Virus record (IMG/VR): IMGVR_UViG_3300027851_000078
Coordinates: 1-34,825 of that record
Length of the DNA: 34,825 nucleotides
Direction: 5' to 3' (one strand)
Source: a virus
A model generated the notes under the pieces. It ran no database searches and was not told where the DNA came from. It saw only the letters and a list, made by a program, of their open reading frames with translations. The stretch's first letter is position 1. Each line of letters starts with the position of its first letter. Both the position numbers and the translations under genes were made by a program. Positions 2-26,752 of the stretch are shown piece by piece.

Positions 2-103
2 AAACTGCGGAAATTGCTGCAAGAGGTGTTGGCAGTTGCCGAGCGGAACGAGCGTGGCGTGGTTACGGACGCAGCCCGCGCAGCCATCACCGAAGCACCC
101 TAG
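2..103 (+). CDS. C-terminal fragment of an unidentified protein (cut by left edge)
   Basis: An open frame enters from the left edge and encodes 33 residues before a TAG. It starts KLRKLLQEVLAVAERNE and ends AARAAITEAP, helical and charged like the small accessory proteins of the rightward arm. GC is enriched at third codon positions. It runs tail to tail with the leftward gene ending at 87 (17-base overlap). I infer it is the end of the rightward operon re-entering on a circular map. It cannot be fused directly to the gene at the right edge because the frames differ. Function unknown. Confidence 0.5.
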   Translation, partial: KLRKLLQEVLAVAERNERGVVTDAARAAITEAP

Positions 104-371
104 CCGCCTCATAGATCAGCGCGGGCAGGCTATCACGCGGTATCACCGCCACCAGCTTGCCCGACACCCACACGCCAATGCCGGATTCATGCGGCGCGTC
201 CGCTTTGCGGTCAACTACGTTGTGGATCGGCGCTAGGCCCTCTCAATCGGATCTAGCGCCCGAAGCACCAGCCCGTCCTGTTTGTGAAAGGTCAGCGATT
301 GCAGCGCCCGCCGCCCGCGCTGACCCGTGCTGTTTGACGGCTTCCACCGCCTCTTGCTGTAACGGCGTCAT
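87..371 (-). pseudogene. Small phage gene, apparently frameshifted twice
   Basis: An ATG at 371 overlaps the stop of the upstream gene (ATGA), and opens with MTPLQQEAVEAVKQHGSARA. That frame soon loses coding character and stops at 243. The neighbouring frame is open from about 316 to 233 with high GC at third positions (RRALQSLTFHKQDGLVLRAL). The first frame then resumes after the stop with coding-like sequence down to 87 (ESGIGVWVSGKLVAVIPRD, ending EAARVLR). The simplest reading is one gene of about 90 residues carrying two compensating indels, near the G-rich stretch at about 305-320 and near 235-245. Alternatives are sequencing errors, or two very small genes. No function recognised. Confidence 0.4.
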
Positions 372-640
372 ACGTTCGGCTTTGCTGCGAAGGTTTCAAA
401 CCCCTGCCCCGATCCGACCGAACAGGACAGGCCATTGGGCAGGGTGATGAACATCGACCATGTGCCGGTATCCCGGCTGCCCCACAATTCGATCACGCTG
501 CCATCGGGGCGCATGGCCATTGCCAGCCGCTCCTCGCCGTAATTGTCGATCAGGGACGCATACGCATCCGCCGTGCCGATGCACTCTTGCGCCCTGGCTG
601 GGGACGCCGCCAAGGCGGTTAGCAGGATCAAGGCTTTCAT
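368..640 (-). CDS. Small secreted protein with signal peptide
   Basis: 90 residues. The N-terminus (MKALILLTALAASPARAQEC) is a classic Sec signal peptide with a likely ARA-Q cleavage. The mature part of about 72 residues has two cysteines (EC near the new N-terminus and LSCSVGS near residue 73) that could form a disulfide, and the motif DGSVIELWGSRDTGTWSMF. The start is supported by AAAGGGA shortly upstream. The TGA overlaps the next ATG. It lies downstream of the Acb2-like gene at the far end of the late operon, where phages often carry accessory cargo. A periplasmic role is inferred; I do not recognise the family. Confidence 0.7.
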   Translation of the reverse strand: MKALILLTALAASPARAQECIGTADAYASLIDNYGEERLAMAMRPDGSVIELWGSRDTGTWSMFITLPNGLSCSVGSGQGFETFAAKPNV

Positions 641-693: not shown

Positions 694-882
694 TCAAACG
701 AAGTTGGCCTTCACGGCCCACATTGCGGCCTGTTCGTAGTTGGTCAGAGCGATGGAGCGGTGACGGTTTTCCGGCACGGCTTCGCGCAGATACTCCATCA
801 GTTCCTCGGTGCGCCGCTTGATTTCAGCGACAACTTCGGAACCCGAAGGATTGAAGGCGGGGATGGTGGTTTCATTTGACAT
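694..882 (-). CDS. Acb2/Tad1-like cyclic-nucleotide sponge (anti-CBASS candidate)
   Basis: 62 residues in two predicted helices. The second half, RHRSIALTNYEQAAMWAVKA, fits the pattern I know from the Acb2/Tad1 hairpin family (R-x-x-S-L/I-A-x-T-x-x-E-x-A-x-M-W-A-x-x-A), preceded by a charged helix (EVVAEIKRRTEELMEYLRE). Family members bind cyclic di- and trinucleotide messengers and so block CBASS or Thoeris signalling. That role is inferred here from the pattern alone. The start at 882 is preceded by AGGAAC. Length fits the short hairpin-only members of the family. It lies after the lysis genes. An unrelated two-helix phage protein remains possible. Confidence 0.65.
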   Translation of the reverse strand: MSNETTIPAFNPSGSEVVAEIKRRTEELMEYLREAVPENRHRSIALTNYEQAAMWAVKANFV

Positions 883-1377
883 AGCATGTTCCTAGTCAGC
901 CCATTGACGCTTGGGCGGGCGAAACGGCTTGCCGCCGAATTTGAGAATGTCATGTTAAAGAAATGCGCTTTTGTGGACACGTTGCGCGGGACGTGTTAAC
1001 TTTCGCGGCAATAAGACCCGTTCCGCCTCTCGCAGAAGCGCACCGCTTCGGGTTACTCGTCGCTTGTCACTGCGTAGCGGGGGCGGGCAGCTAGCGCGGG
1101 GCTTGCCGCGAAGTCGGTTGCAAACGGCGGAACCGCCTGCCCGTGGGCGCTATCACGGGAGCCGCTTTCTGGCGGTGGCATGTATGCGACAGCGGGTATC
1201 GGCAGGACGTGCACCCTGACCCCCGCCGTGCGTGTCACCTCCAGAGCGCGGCGACAGGGCAAATTGCAATCCCCGACCGCAGGGGGCCTTGTCTCGAAAA
1301 TGGCGGACGCGTTCTAACCAAGTCGTTGCCCTGCTCACTTGGCAACAGCCCCCGTCCTAATCGGCGGGGGTTTCTTT
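883..1377. other. About 500 bases without a convincing gene
   Basis: Separates the lysis cassette from the Acb2-like gene. A coding-like minus-strand tail is visible at 892-951 (DILKFGGKPFRPPKRQWAD, then TAG). It has no ATG, GTG or TTG start because a TAA lies two codons upstream, so it may be a gene remnant. The rest (about 960-1317) is GC-rich, with short inverted repeats and no frame that looks coding. A plus-strand double hairpin with T-run closes it at 1318-1378. I found no tRNA fold. It could hold a small RNA, a packaging site or decayed sequence. Confidence 0.5.
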
Positions 1378-1378: not shown

Positions 1379-1578
1379 CACCAGCACCCCCGCGCCGCGC
1401 CAAATTCCATATGCCCGATCACTGCCGAGAGCGCCGCCGGATCGTTCGCCGAAAGATAATCAATCGACGCGCCCGCCATGCGAACAGGACGCCATCCCGC
1501 GCAGTCATTCGCCACCGGGGCGCAGGACGCCAGCCCGCTTAGCCCGAGCGACAAGATCAACATCTTGGTCAATCGCAT
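1378..1578 (-). CDS. Outer-membrane spanin lipoprotein (o-spanin, Rz1-like)
   Basis: 66 residues. The N-terminus MRLTKMLILSLGLSGLASCA is a lipoprotein signal with a lipobox ending at Cys19 (LASC). The short mature part has cysteines in NDCAGW and at RGCW. It begins inside the 3' end of the i-spanin gene in another frame (74-base overlap), the typical overlapping Rz/Rz1 arrangement. With the inner-membrane partner it would bridge the periplasm and fuse the two membranes in the last step of lysis. Unusually for Rz1-type proteins it is not proline-rich. Identification rests on lipobox, size and position. Confidence 0.75.
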   Translation of the reverse strand: MRLTKMLILSLGLSGLASCAPVANDCAGWRPVRMAGASIDYLSANDPAALSAVIGHMEFGAARGCW

Positions 1579-1738
1579 CCTCTATCCTTTCGCGTGTCTT
1601 GTAGGCTTCCACATCGCCCCGTAGCGCCTCTGTGCGGGCTTCCTGACGCGCTTCCCGCCTTCCCGCTATCCATGCGCCCAGAACGGCCAGAACAAGCGCC
1701 ACAGCGCCTGCTATCCACAGCCTGAACCGTGTCAGCAT
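1505..1738 (-). CDS. Inner-membrane spanin (i-spanin, Rz-like)
   Basis: 77 residues from the ATG at 1738, whose A is shared with the endolysin stop (TGATG). One N-terminal transmembrane helix (about residues 6-24, WIAGAVALVLAVLGAWIAG) is followed by a charged, coiled-coil-prone helix (RREARQEARTEALRGDVEAY). This is the N-in, C-out topology of class II Rz proteins. It is shorter than lambda Rz but within the range of phage i-spanins. It partners the overlapping o-spanin gene to disrupt the outer membrane after peptidoglycan is degraded. Confidence 0.8.
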   Translation of the reverse strand: MLTRFRLWIAGAVALVLAVLGAWIAGRREARQEARTEALRGDVEAYKTRERIEDAIDQDVDLVARAKRAGVLRPGGE

Positions 1739-2397
1739 CAGCGCACACCCTCCGACCACTTGCGGATGCGTTCGCGGGCGATCCAGAGCGCCGCCAACAC
1801 GATCACCGCCGCGAGAACAAGCGCCACAACCTGAGCCGTTCCATCAAGAGCGCCCACAGCAACGACACCGCTGCCCACGCCAGACGCAAGCTGAACCGCA
1901 GAGGCGCGAACGGTCGTGGATTGCGTGACATTGGCGCGGGCCTTCTTTGCGACAGGTTTCAGGAATAGCGCACGTTCGGCTTCGCGGCGGCGTTTCAGGC
2001 CAGACAGAACCTTGCCACCCGCCTTATTCCAAAGCAGGAAAGCATCCGCCGCCCGCGCCTTGTCGCCCGCATTGAAAAACCGCAGCACCGACGATTTGGC
2101 AAACGCCCCCGGCCCAATGTTGTATGCAAGCGAAAGCATCGCCGCCCATTCGTTTTCGTTCACGTCCGCCGTGATCTTGGGCCGGATGGATGCGCCGAAT
2201 TTGTCCAGCGCCTTGGCAAGATATATTTCCGCCTCGTCTTCGGAAATCCGCATTCCGGGCTTGGGGTCGATGCCCACGCCCGCCGCCGCAGTTGTGCCGA
2301 AACCGATGGTCAGCACGCCCACCGCGTCCTTGTATGTTTCGGCGCGAAAGCCCTCGAATTCCTTGATGAGGTCAAGGCCCGCTTTGTTAATGGTCAT
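1738..2397 (-). CDS. GH24 endolysin (T4-lysozyme type) with C-terminal membrane anchor
   Basis: 219 residues from the ATG at 2397, chosen because it overlaps the holin stop as ATGA. The catalytic triad of family 24 muramidases is visible: Glu15, Asp24 and Thr30 with the exact E-x8-D-x5-T spacing (EFEGFRAETYKDAVGVLTIG). The lysozyme domain runs to about residue 150 (NIGPGAFAKSSVL, AFLLWNKAGGK). There is no N-terminal signal or SAR anchor. Instead a Ser/Thr/Ala/Gly-rich linker leads to a hydrophobic stretch and a clear transmembrane segment (VVALVLAAVIVLAALWIA) ending in a basic tail (RERIRKWSEGVR). It cleaves peptidoglycan glycan strands; the C-terminal anchor is unusual and suggests tethered or membrane-gated release. 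Confidence 0.9.
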   Translation of the reverse strand: MTINKAGLDLIKEFEGFRAETYKDAVGVLTIGFGTTAAAGVGIDPKPGMRISEDEAEIYLAKALDKFGASIRPKITADVNENEWAAMLSLAYNIGPGAFAKSSVLRFFNAGDKARAADAFLLWNKAGGKVLSGLKRRREAERALFLKPVAKKARANVTQSTTVRASAVQLASGVGSGVVAVGALDGTAQVVALVLAAVIVLAALWIARERIRKWSEGVR

Positions 2398-2660
2398 TTC
2401 CCCGCCCAATCCTTTGCATAAAAGGCCAGCGCCACCAGCACCAAGCCCGCAAACGCCTTGCTAATCACGCTGACAACCGATTGCCGCACCGTGCGCTTGG
2501 TGTCGCGCCATGCGTCCAGAAGCCCGCGTATTTCGCGCATGTCTTCCGCCGCCGTTTCTTGCTCTAAGCCGAGTTCTTTCAGCACGTCCTTGACGGCCCG
2601 CTTGGCGACACGCTCAAGCAGGGCGTCCAGTTCATCCGGCGACAATTCGGGCATGTTCAC
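2394..2660 (-). CDS. Holin-like protein with one C-terminal transmembrane helix
   Basis: 88 residues. A charged helical N-terminal two thirds (LSPDELDALLERVAKRAVKD) is followed by one membrane helix near the C-terminus (AFAGLVLVALAFYA). This resembles small alphaproteobacterial phage proteins annotated as holin-like. It lies immediately upstream of and overlaps the endolysin, the usual holin position. The GTG at 2660 overlaps the previous stop (GTGA); the ATG at 2654 is the alternative start. Holin function is inferred from context and topology. Confidence 0.6.
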   Translation of the reverse strand: MNMPELSPDELDALLERVAKRAVKDVLKELGLEQETAAEDMREIRGLLDAWRDTKRTVRQSVVSVISKAFAGLVLVALAFYAKDWAGK

Positions 2661-26482: not shown

Positions 26483-26752
26483 ATGGACCTAGATGAAAAA
26501 CCCTTTGGCGATATCGCCGCCCGTCTCCGCTGGCATCGCCAGTTGGAAGGACTTGAACAAAAAGAATATGCCGAGACCGCCGGGTTAAAGCGGTCTCAGC
26601 TCTCTAACTGGGAATCGGGTGACTATCGCTTGTCGCTCGACGGTGCCCGCGCCTTGCGGAAAACATACGGGTTATCGTTGGACTTCCTGTTTGAAGGCAT
26701 AGACGATGCGTTACCTATGACCCTTAGGGTAGCTTGGCGCGACAAGCCTTGA
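26483..26752 (+). CDS. CI-like repressor (XRE-family helix-turn-helix)
   Basis: 89 residues from the ATG at 26483; longer in-frame starts run through the operator. HTH region: FGDIAARLRWHRQLEGLEQK, EYAETAGLKRSQLSNWESGD, YRLSLDGARALRKTYGLSLD, then FLFEGIDDALP. This is the classic XRE domain (Q-x-x-x-A-x-x-x-G-x-x-x-x-x-x-x-x-x-E-x-G). There is no C-terminal peptidase domain, so induction by RecA-stimulated self-cleavage is not expected. Four similar 17-bp operators surround it, two on the side of the rightward operon. It most likely maintains lysogeny. Confidence 0.85.
   Translation: MDLDEKPFGDIAARLRWHRQLEGLEQKEYAETAGLKRSQLSNWESGDYRLSLDGARALRKTYGLSLDFLFEGIDDALPMTLRVAWRDKP

Follow-up and report, generated by a model that had tools for sequence, protein, structure and literature searches.

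A compact Acb2-type candidate nucleotide sponge encoded beside the lysis genes of a probable alphaproteobacterial phage

Introduction

Proteins of the Acb2/Tad1 family sequester the nucleotides with which bacterial immune systems raise the alarm. A first-pass annotation of the viral record IMGVR_UViG_3300027851_000078 (IMG/VR), of which we analyzed positions 1 to 34,825 (hereafter the window, 34,825 nucleotides), attributed such an activity to a reading frame for only 62 residues. This raises three questions: whether so short a frame is a gene at all, whether its product belongs to the Acb2/Tad1 family, and which member of the family, and hence which class of signal, it would correspond to. 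The features of the window used below are the following:

694..882, minus strand: candidate Acb2-type sponge gene, 62 aa, ATG start, MSNETTIPAFNPSGSEVVAEIKRRTEELMEYLREAVPENRHRSIALTNYEQAAMWAVKANFV; Acb2/Tad1 hairpin domain at residues 11-61
883..897, minus strand: putative ribosome-binding site region, read from the sequence, AGGAAC before the ATG
1738..2409, minus strand: phage lysozyme/endolysin, upstream of the sponge gene; PF00959, 134 bits; phrog_7
1505..1759, minus strand: Rz-like spanin, upstream of the sponge gene; phrog_1026 (lysis), E 7e-8
368..640, minus strand: 90-aa protein that appears to carry a signal peptide, downstream of the sponge gene; phrog_25396, E 5e-21, function unknown
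about 90-371, minus strand: broken or remnant reading frame beyond the signal-peptide protein, open but for one in-frame TGA
26525-26689, plus strand: HTH_3 repressor-like domain; the replication and structural genes are on the other strand

Results and discussion

A short gene under purifying selection

The frame described by the first-pass annotation is present on the minus strand, and the pattern reported in its product is exact (R40..SIALT..E50.A.MWA..A59). Its length of 62 aa and the longer open reading frames that overlap it on the opposite strand would suit a chance frame with a fortuitous motif. Scans recovered relatives at 58 viral and 8 bacterial-genome loci, dozens of them intact. 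Compared with six viral relatives from among the nearest, the frame has a dN of 0.10-0.18 and a dS of 0.7-2.4, some of the dS values being saturated, and substitutions relative to the nearest viral relatives fall mostly at third codon positions. An AGGA-type ribosome-binding site is found at equal spacing ahead of the gene in most of the nine relatives inspected. Since relatives occur in both viral and bacterial-genome loci, dN lies far below dS and the ribosome-binding site is kept, the frame is a real gene under purifying selection. The chance reading, to which we give a negligible probability, is refuted by this selection together with the family match presented below (E 3.5e-13).

Assignment to the Acb2/Tad1 family

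A Pfam search matched the protein to PF24729 (Acb2_Tad1_hairpin) over profile positions 3-57 of 58, with a score of 50 bits where the curated cut-off is 27 bits, which bears out the family proposed at first pass. The positive control of this search, T4 Acb2 (Vs.4), scores 71 bits, and no PF24729 match was obtained in 14 control genomes. The profile finds exactly one match within the viral record, and it matches all 48 relatives in our alignment of the subfamily (A1). Other searches point the same way at lower significance: a profile-profile comparison of the subfamily with T4-type Acb2 gives E 1.4e-5 and a probability of 80% over 26 columns, covering the second helix only, and 9ptq ('Acb2 homolog 43'), T4 Vs.4 and four distinct Tad1 sequences appear together in a profile search of the PDB, each of them below threshold (E 0.26-0.76). 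Whether the PDB was searched with the single sequence or with the profile, Acb2/Tad1 entries came up only below threshold and were outranked by unrelated or designed helical proteins. No NCBIfam model matches the 62-aa protein. Taken as sequence evidence, the PF24729 match is decisive in placing the protein in the Acb2/Tad1 family; the predicted structure agrees with this assignment but is no proof of it, because helical hairpins are common.

An Acb2-type hairpin in the predicted structure

The AlphaFold2 monomer model, built on the A1 alignment, consists of two helices (residues 16-35 and 40-61) and no strands, with a mean pLDDT of 95.2 and a pTM of 0.78. Residues 1-15 are non-helical in this model; in Acb2, a short N-terminal helix precedes the two long ones. 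A Foldseek search against the PDB returns CbTad1 (7uav) at ranks 1 and 3, with E above 1, and VIA-align gives it a Z of 4.7 over residues 20-62, amid many unrelated helical hairpins; the corresponding fold alignment pairs model residues 20-62 with chain residues 67-112. Acb2 entries are missing from the Foldseek and VIA-align lists for the monomer, which is not evidence against an Acb2 type. Because helical hairpins are so common, both lists are uninformative beyond the presence of CbTad1 near the top.

The Acb2 proteins of Pseudomonas phage PaMx33 and of T4 (Vs.4; PDB 8h2j/8ixz set, 7uq2) share with the 62-aa protein the two-helix hairpin without a beta-sheet, an N-terminal aromatic residue (Y11/Y8 vs F10) and the hairpin threonine (T74/T68 vs T47). 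R67 of PaMx33 Acb2 corresponds to R40, and T4 Acb2 has the same MWA..A.F end. They differ in length (88-94 aa vs 62 aa), the helices and the N-terminal linker being shorter here, in carrying Tyr where the 62-aa protein has Phe and, for T4, in lacking the Arg; pairwise identity is low. The same layout is found in 9ptq (76 aa, six chains), a compact hairpin to which residues 11-59 align without gaps (chain residues 9-57) and which has the P-x-x-R-x-x-S turn and the Thr in common, although the sequence match is weak (E 0.28); a limited literature search found no paper naming this entry. Tad1 (PDB 7uav, 8kbg) has a similar C-terminal helical hairpin (SRENACALT..E.ALMW vs NRHRSIALT..E.AAMW) but is about 125 aa long and begins with a four-stranded beta-sheet (PMC12043709), neither of which applies to the 62-aa protein.

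Because the Tad1 beta-sheet is absent from the model, we class the protein as Acb2-type and do not file it as Tad1. The first-pass annotation had wondered about a 'divergent, hairpin-only variant': the hairpin without beta-sheet holds, whereas 'divergent variant' overstates the case, since the Acb2 fold is already a helical hairpin and the structure of a compact homologue, 9ptq, has been solved. The protein is thus a compact Acb2-type member with a layout already known from 9ptq.

Retention of ligand-site residues

We aligned A1 with T4-type Acb2 (A2), PaMx33 Acb2, and the 9ptq and CbTad1 segments taken from HMMER output. F10 shares a column with Y8 of T4 and Y11 of PaMx33, a conservative Tyr to Phe change, and T47 aligns with T68 of T4. 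R40 lies seven residues before T47, a spacing equal to that of R67 and T74 in PaMx33 Acb2 and found also in CbTad1 and 9ptq; T4 Acb2 has Asp at this position, and we take R67 of PaMx33 Acb2 to contribute to trinucleotide binding. Conservation is nearly complete in counts that are partly biased, the peptides used to find the relatives having themselves contained residues of the motif: the aromatic is Phe, and never Tyr, in all 47 relatives of the compact subfamily that have the position, T47 is kept in 47 of the 48 sampled relatives, and R40 is invariant (48/48). The N-terminal linker has about 3 residues fewer than that of T4 and PaMx33 Acb2, so that the equivalence of K22 with K23/K26 depends on a gap. 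By this alignment, three key Acb2 positions are retained, namely F10 (Tyr8/Tyr11), R40 (PaMx33 Arg67) and T47 (T4 Thr68).

These residues bear on the choice between the two sponge types. A Tad1-like sponge for the Thoeris signals (gcADPR or cADPR isomers) would fit with a PF24729 profile that spans both Acb2 and Tad1, with CbTad1 being the top Foldseek match (E above 1), and with the R-x6-T pair that CbTad1 shares. Yet F82 and N92 of CbTad1, which we presume to be gcADPR contacts, are not retained: F82 falls in a loop that is missing from the 62-aa protein and N92 falls at R42. As the N-terminal beta-sheet of Tad1 is missing too, gcADPR binding appears less likely, and we hold the Thoeris reading to be quite improbable. 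For the Acb2 positions, mutational data exist: in T4 Acb2, Y8A is binding-deficient and abolishes function, and T68M reduces binding (PMC12657230).

Gene neighbourhood and hosts

A DUF6127 protein, the lysozyme, the Rz-like spanin and a small lipoprotein-like ORF precede the sponge gene in its minus-strand block, which continues with the signal-peptide protein and the TGA-interrupted frame. The lysis genes, the secreted protein and the remnant gene are all where the first-pass annotation had put them. Its further statement that the end of a lysis module is a typical place for such cargo fares less well: the gene does sit beside lysis genes here, but within 2.5 kb of related sponge genes (64 loci) a lysozyme of this type is found near only 2, the signal-peptide protein near 2 (L006 and L009), the portal near 2 and a TerL of this type near 8. 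Since neighbours vary in this way among related loci, the lysis-module position is no constant. At L016, L021, L022, L040, L047, L048 and L058, the Acb2-type gene often adjoins a terminase large subunit or portal gene, which suggests a second favoured cargo site within late genes.

Other genes of the record encode terminase, a tail fibre and a major head protein, together with a primase, a helicase and a recombination set. Weak relatives of the portal (25-30% identity) occur in Myxococcus Mx8/Mx9, Ruegeria, Rhizobium and other phages. A podovirus-like phage is plausible, and so is a temperate life style, given the HTH_3 repressor-like domain; a tyrosine integrase was not found in the viral record, which may be a fragment. 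Seven of the eight genome loci lie in alphaproteobacteria (Roseivivax, Croceicoccus, two Novosphingobium, Hoeflea, Marinosulfonomonas and Amaricoccus) and the remaining one in an unplaced Pseudomonadota genome; the hosts of the phage are probably alphaproteobacteria.

In a set of 296 Roseivivax-family genomes, PF24729 genes occur in 11 and CD-NTase (SMODS) matches in 29. The PF24729 carriers show no enrichment of CD-NTases (2/11 vs 27/285, Fisher p=0.29, a weak test), and this co-occurrence speaks neither for nor against an anti-CBASS role, because prophage carriers represent only part of the phages' host range. One genome of this family (G050, contig 14) carries two PF24729 genes (L112 and L121) about 96 kb apart.

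The lack of association with host CD-NTases and the frequent location of relatives in late gene blocks, with the TerL and portal neighbours counted above, would also be compatible with a hairpin recruited elsewhere, for instance as a small packaging or lysis accessory factor among the late genes that no longer binds immune nucleotides. However, mobile anti-defence cargo would account for the unfixed neighbourhood more readily than a structural role would, and conservation extends to the positions that in T4 Acb2 are tied to ligand binding. We therefore regard recruitment to another function as very unlikely.

Proposed function and significance

The reading that we favour, and consider very probable, is that of a compact, oligomeric Acb2-type sponge that sequesters the cyclic oligonucleotides of CBASS-like host defences. 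We infer that its two antiparallel helices (16-35 and 40-61) would assemble into a hexamer, as in solved Acb2, and that this hexamer would hold, without cutting them, the cyclic oligonucleotide signals made by CBASS-like CD-NTases during infection; cA3 from type III CRISPR might be bound too. The anti-CBASS effect would follow from the host effector staying off, which would keep the cell alive until phage have been produced.

Such a protein would leave existing knowledge of sponge proteins unchanged. The only part that might surprise is its ligand range: the Phe that replaces the pocket Tyr and the short linker, both conserved in a subfamily that may be widespread among alphaproteobacterial phages, would allow a signal set unlike that of known Acb2, for example cyclic trinucleotides only, or an unrecognised alphaproteobacterial defence signal. 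We consider this rather unlikely. The protein offers a minimal, easily expressed scaffold with which to assign individual signals to the parts of Acb2 that bind them.

The analysis also delineates a group of very small putative sponges of the Acb2 type, carried by alphaproteobacterial phages and prophages, whose best matches in an annotated phage collection are still labelled 'hypothetical protein'. Finally, the sponge weakly matches positions 254-282 (E 0.04) of phrog_717, a family of phage proteins with 289 positions and no assigned function; the match sits at the C-terminus of this family, of which a member may possibly be a fusion carrying the same hairpin.
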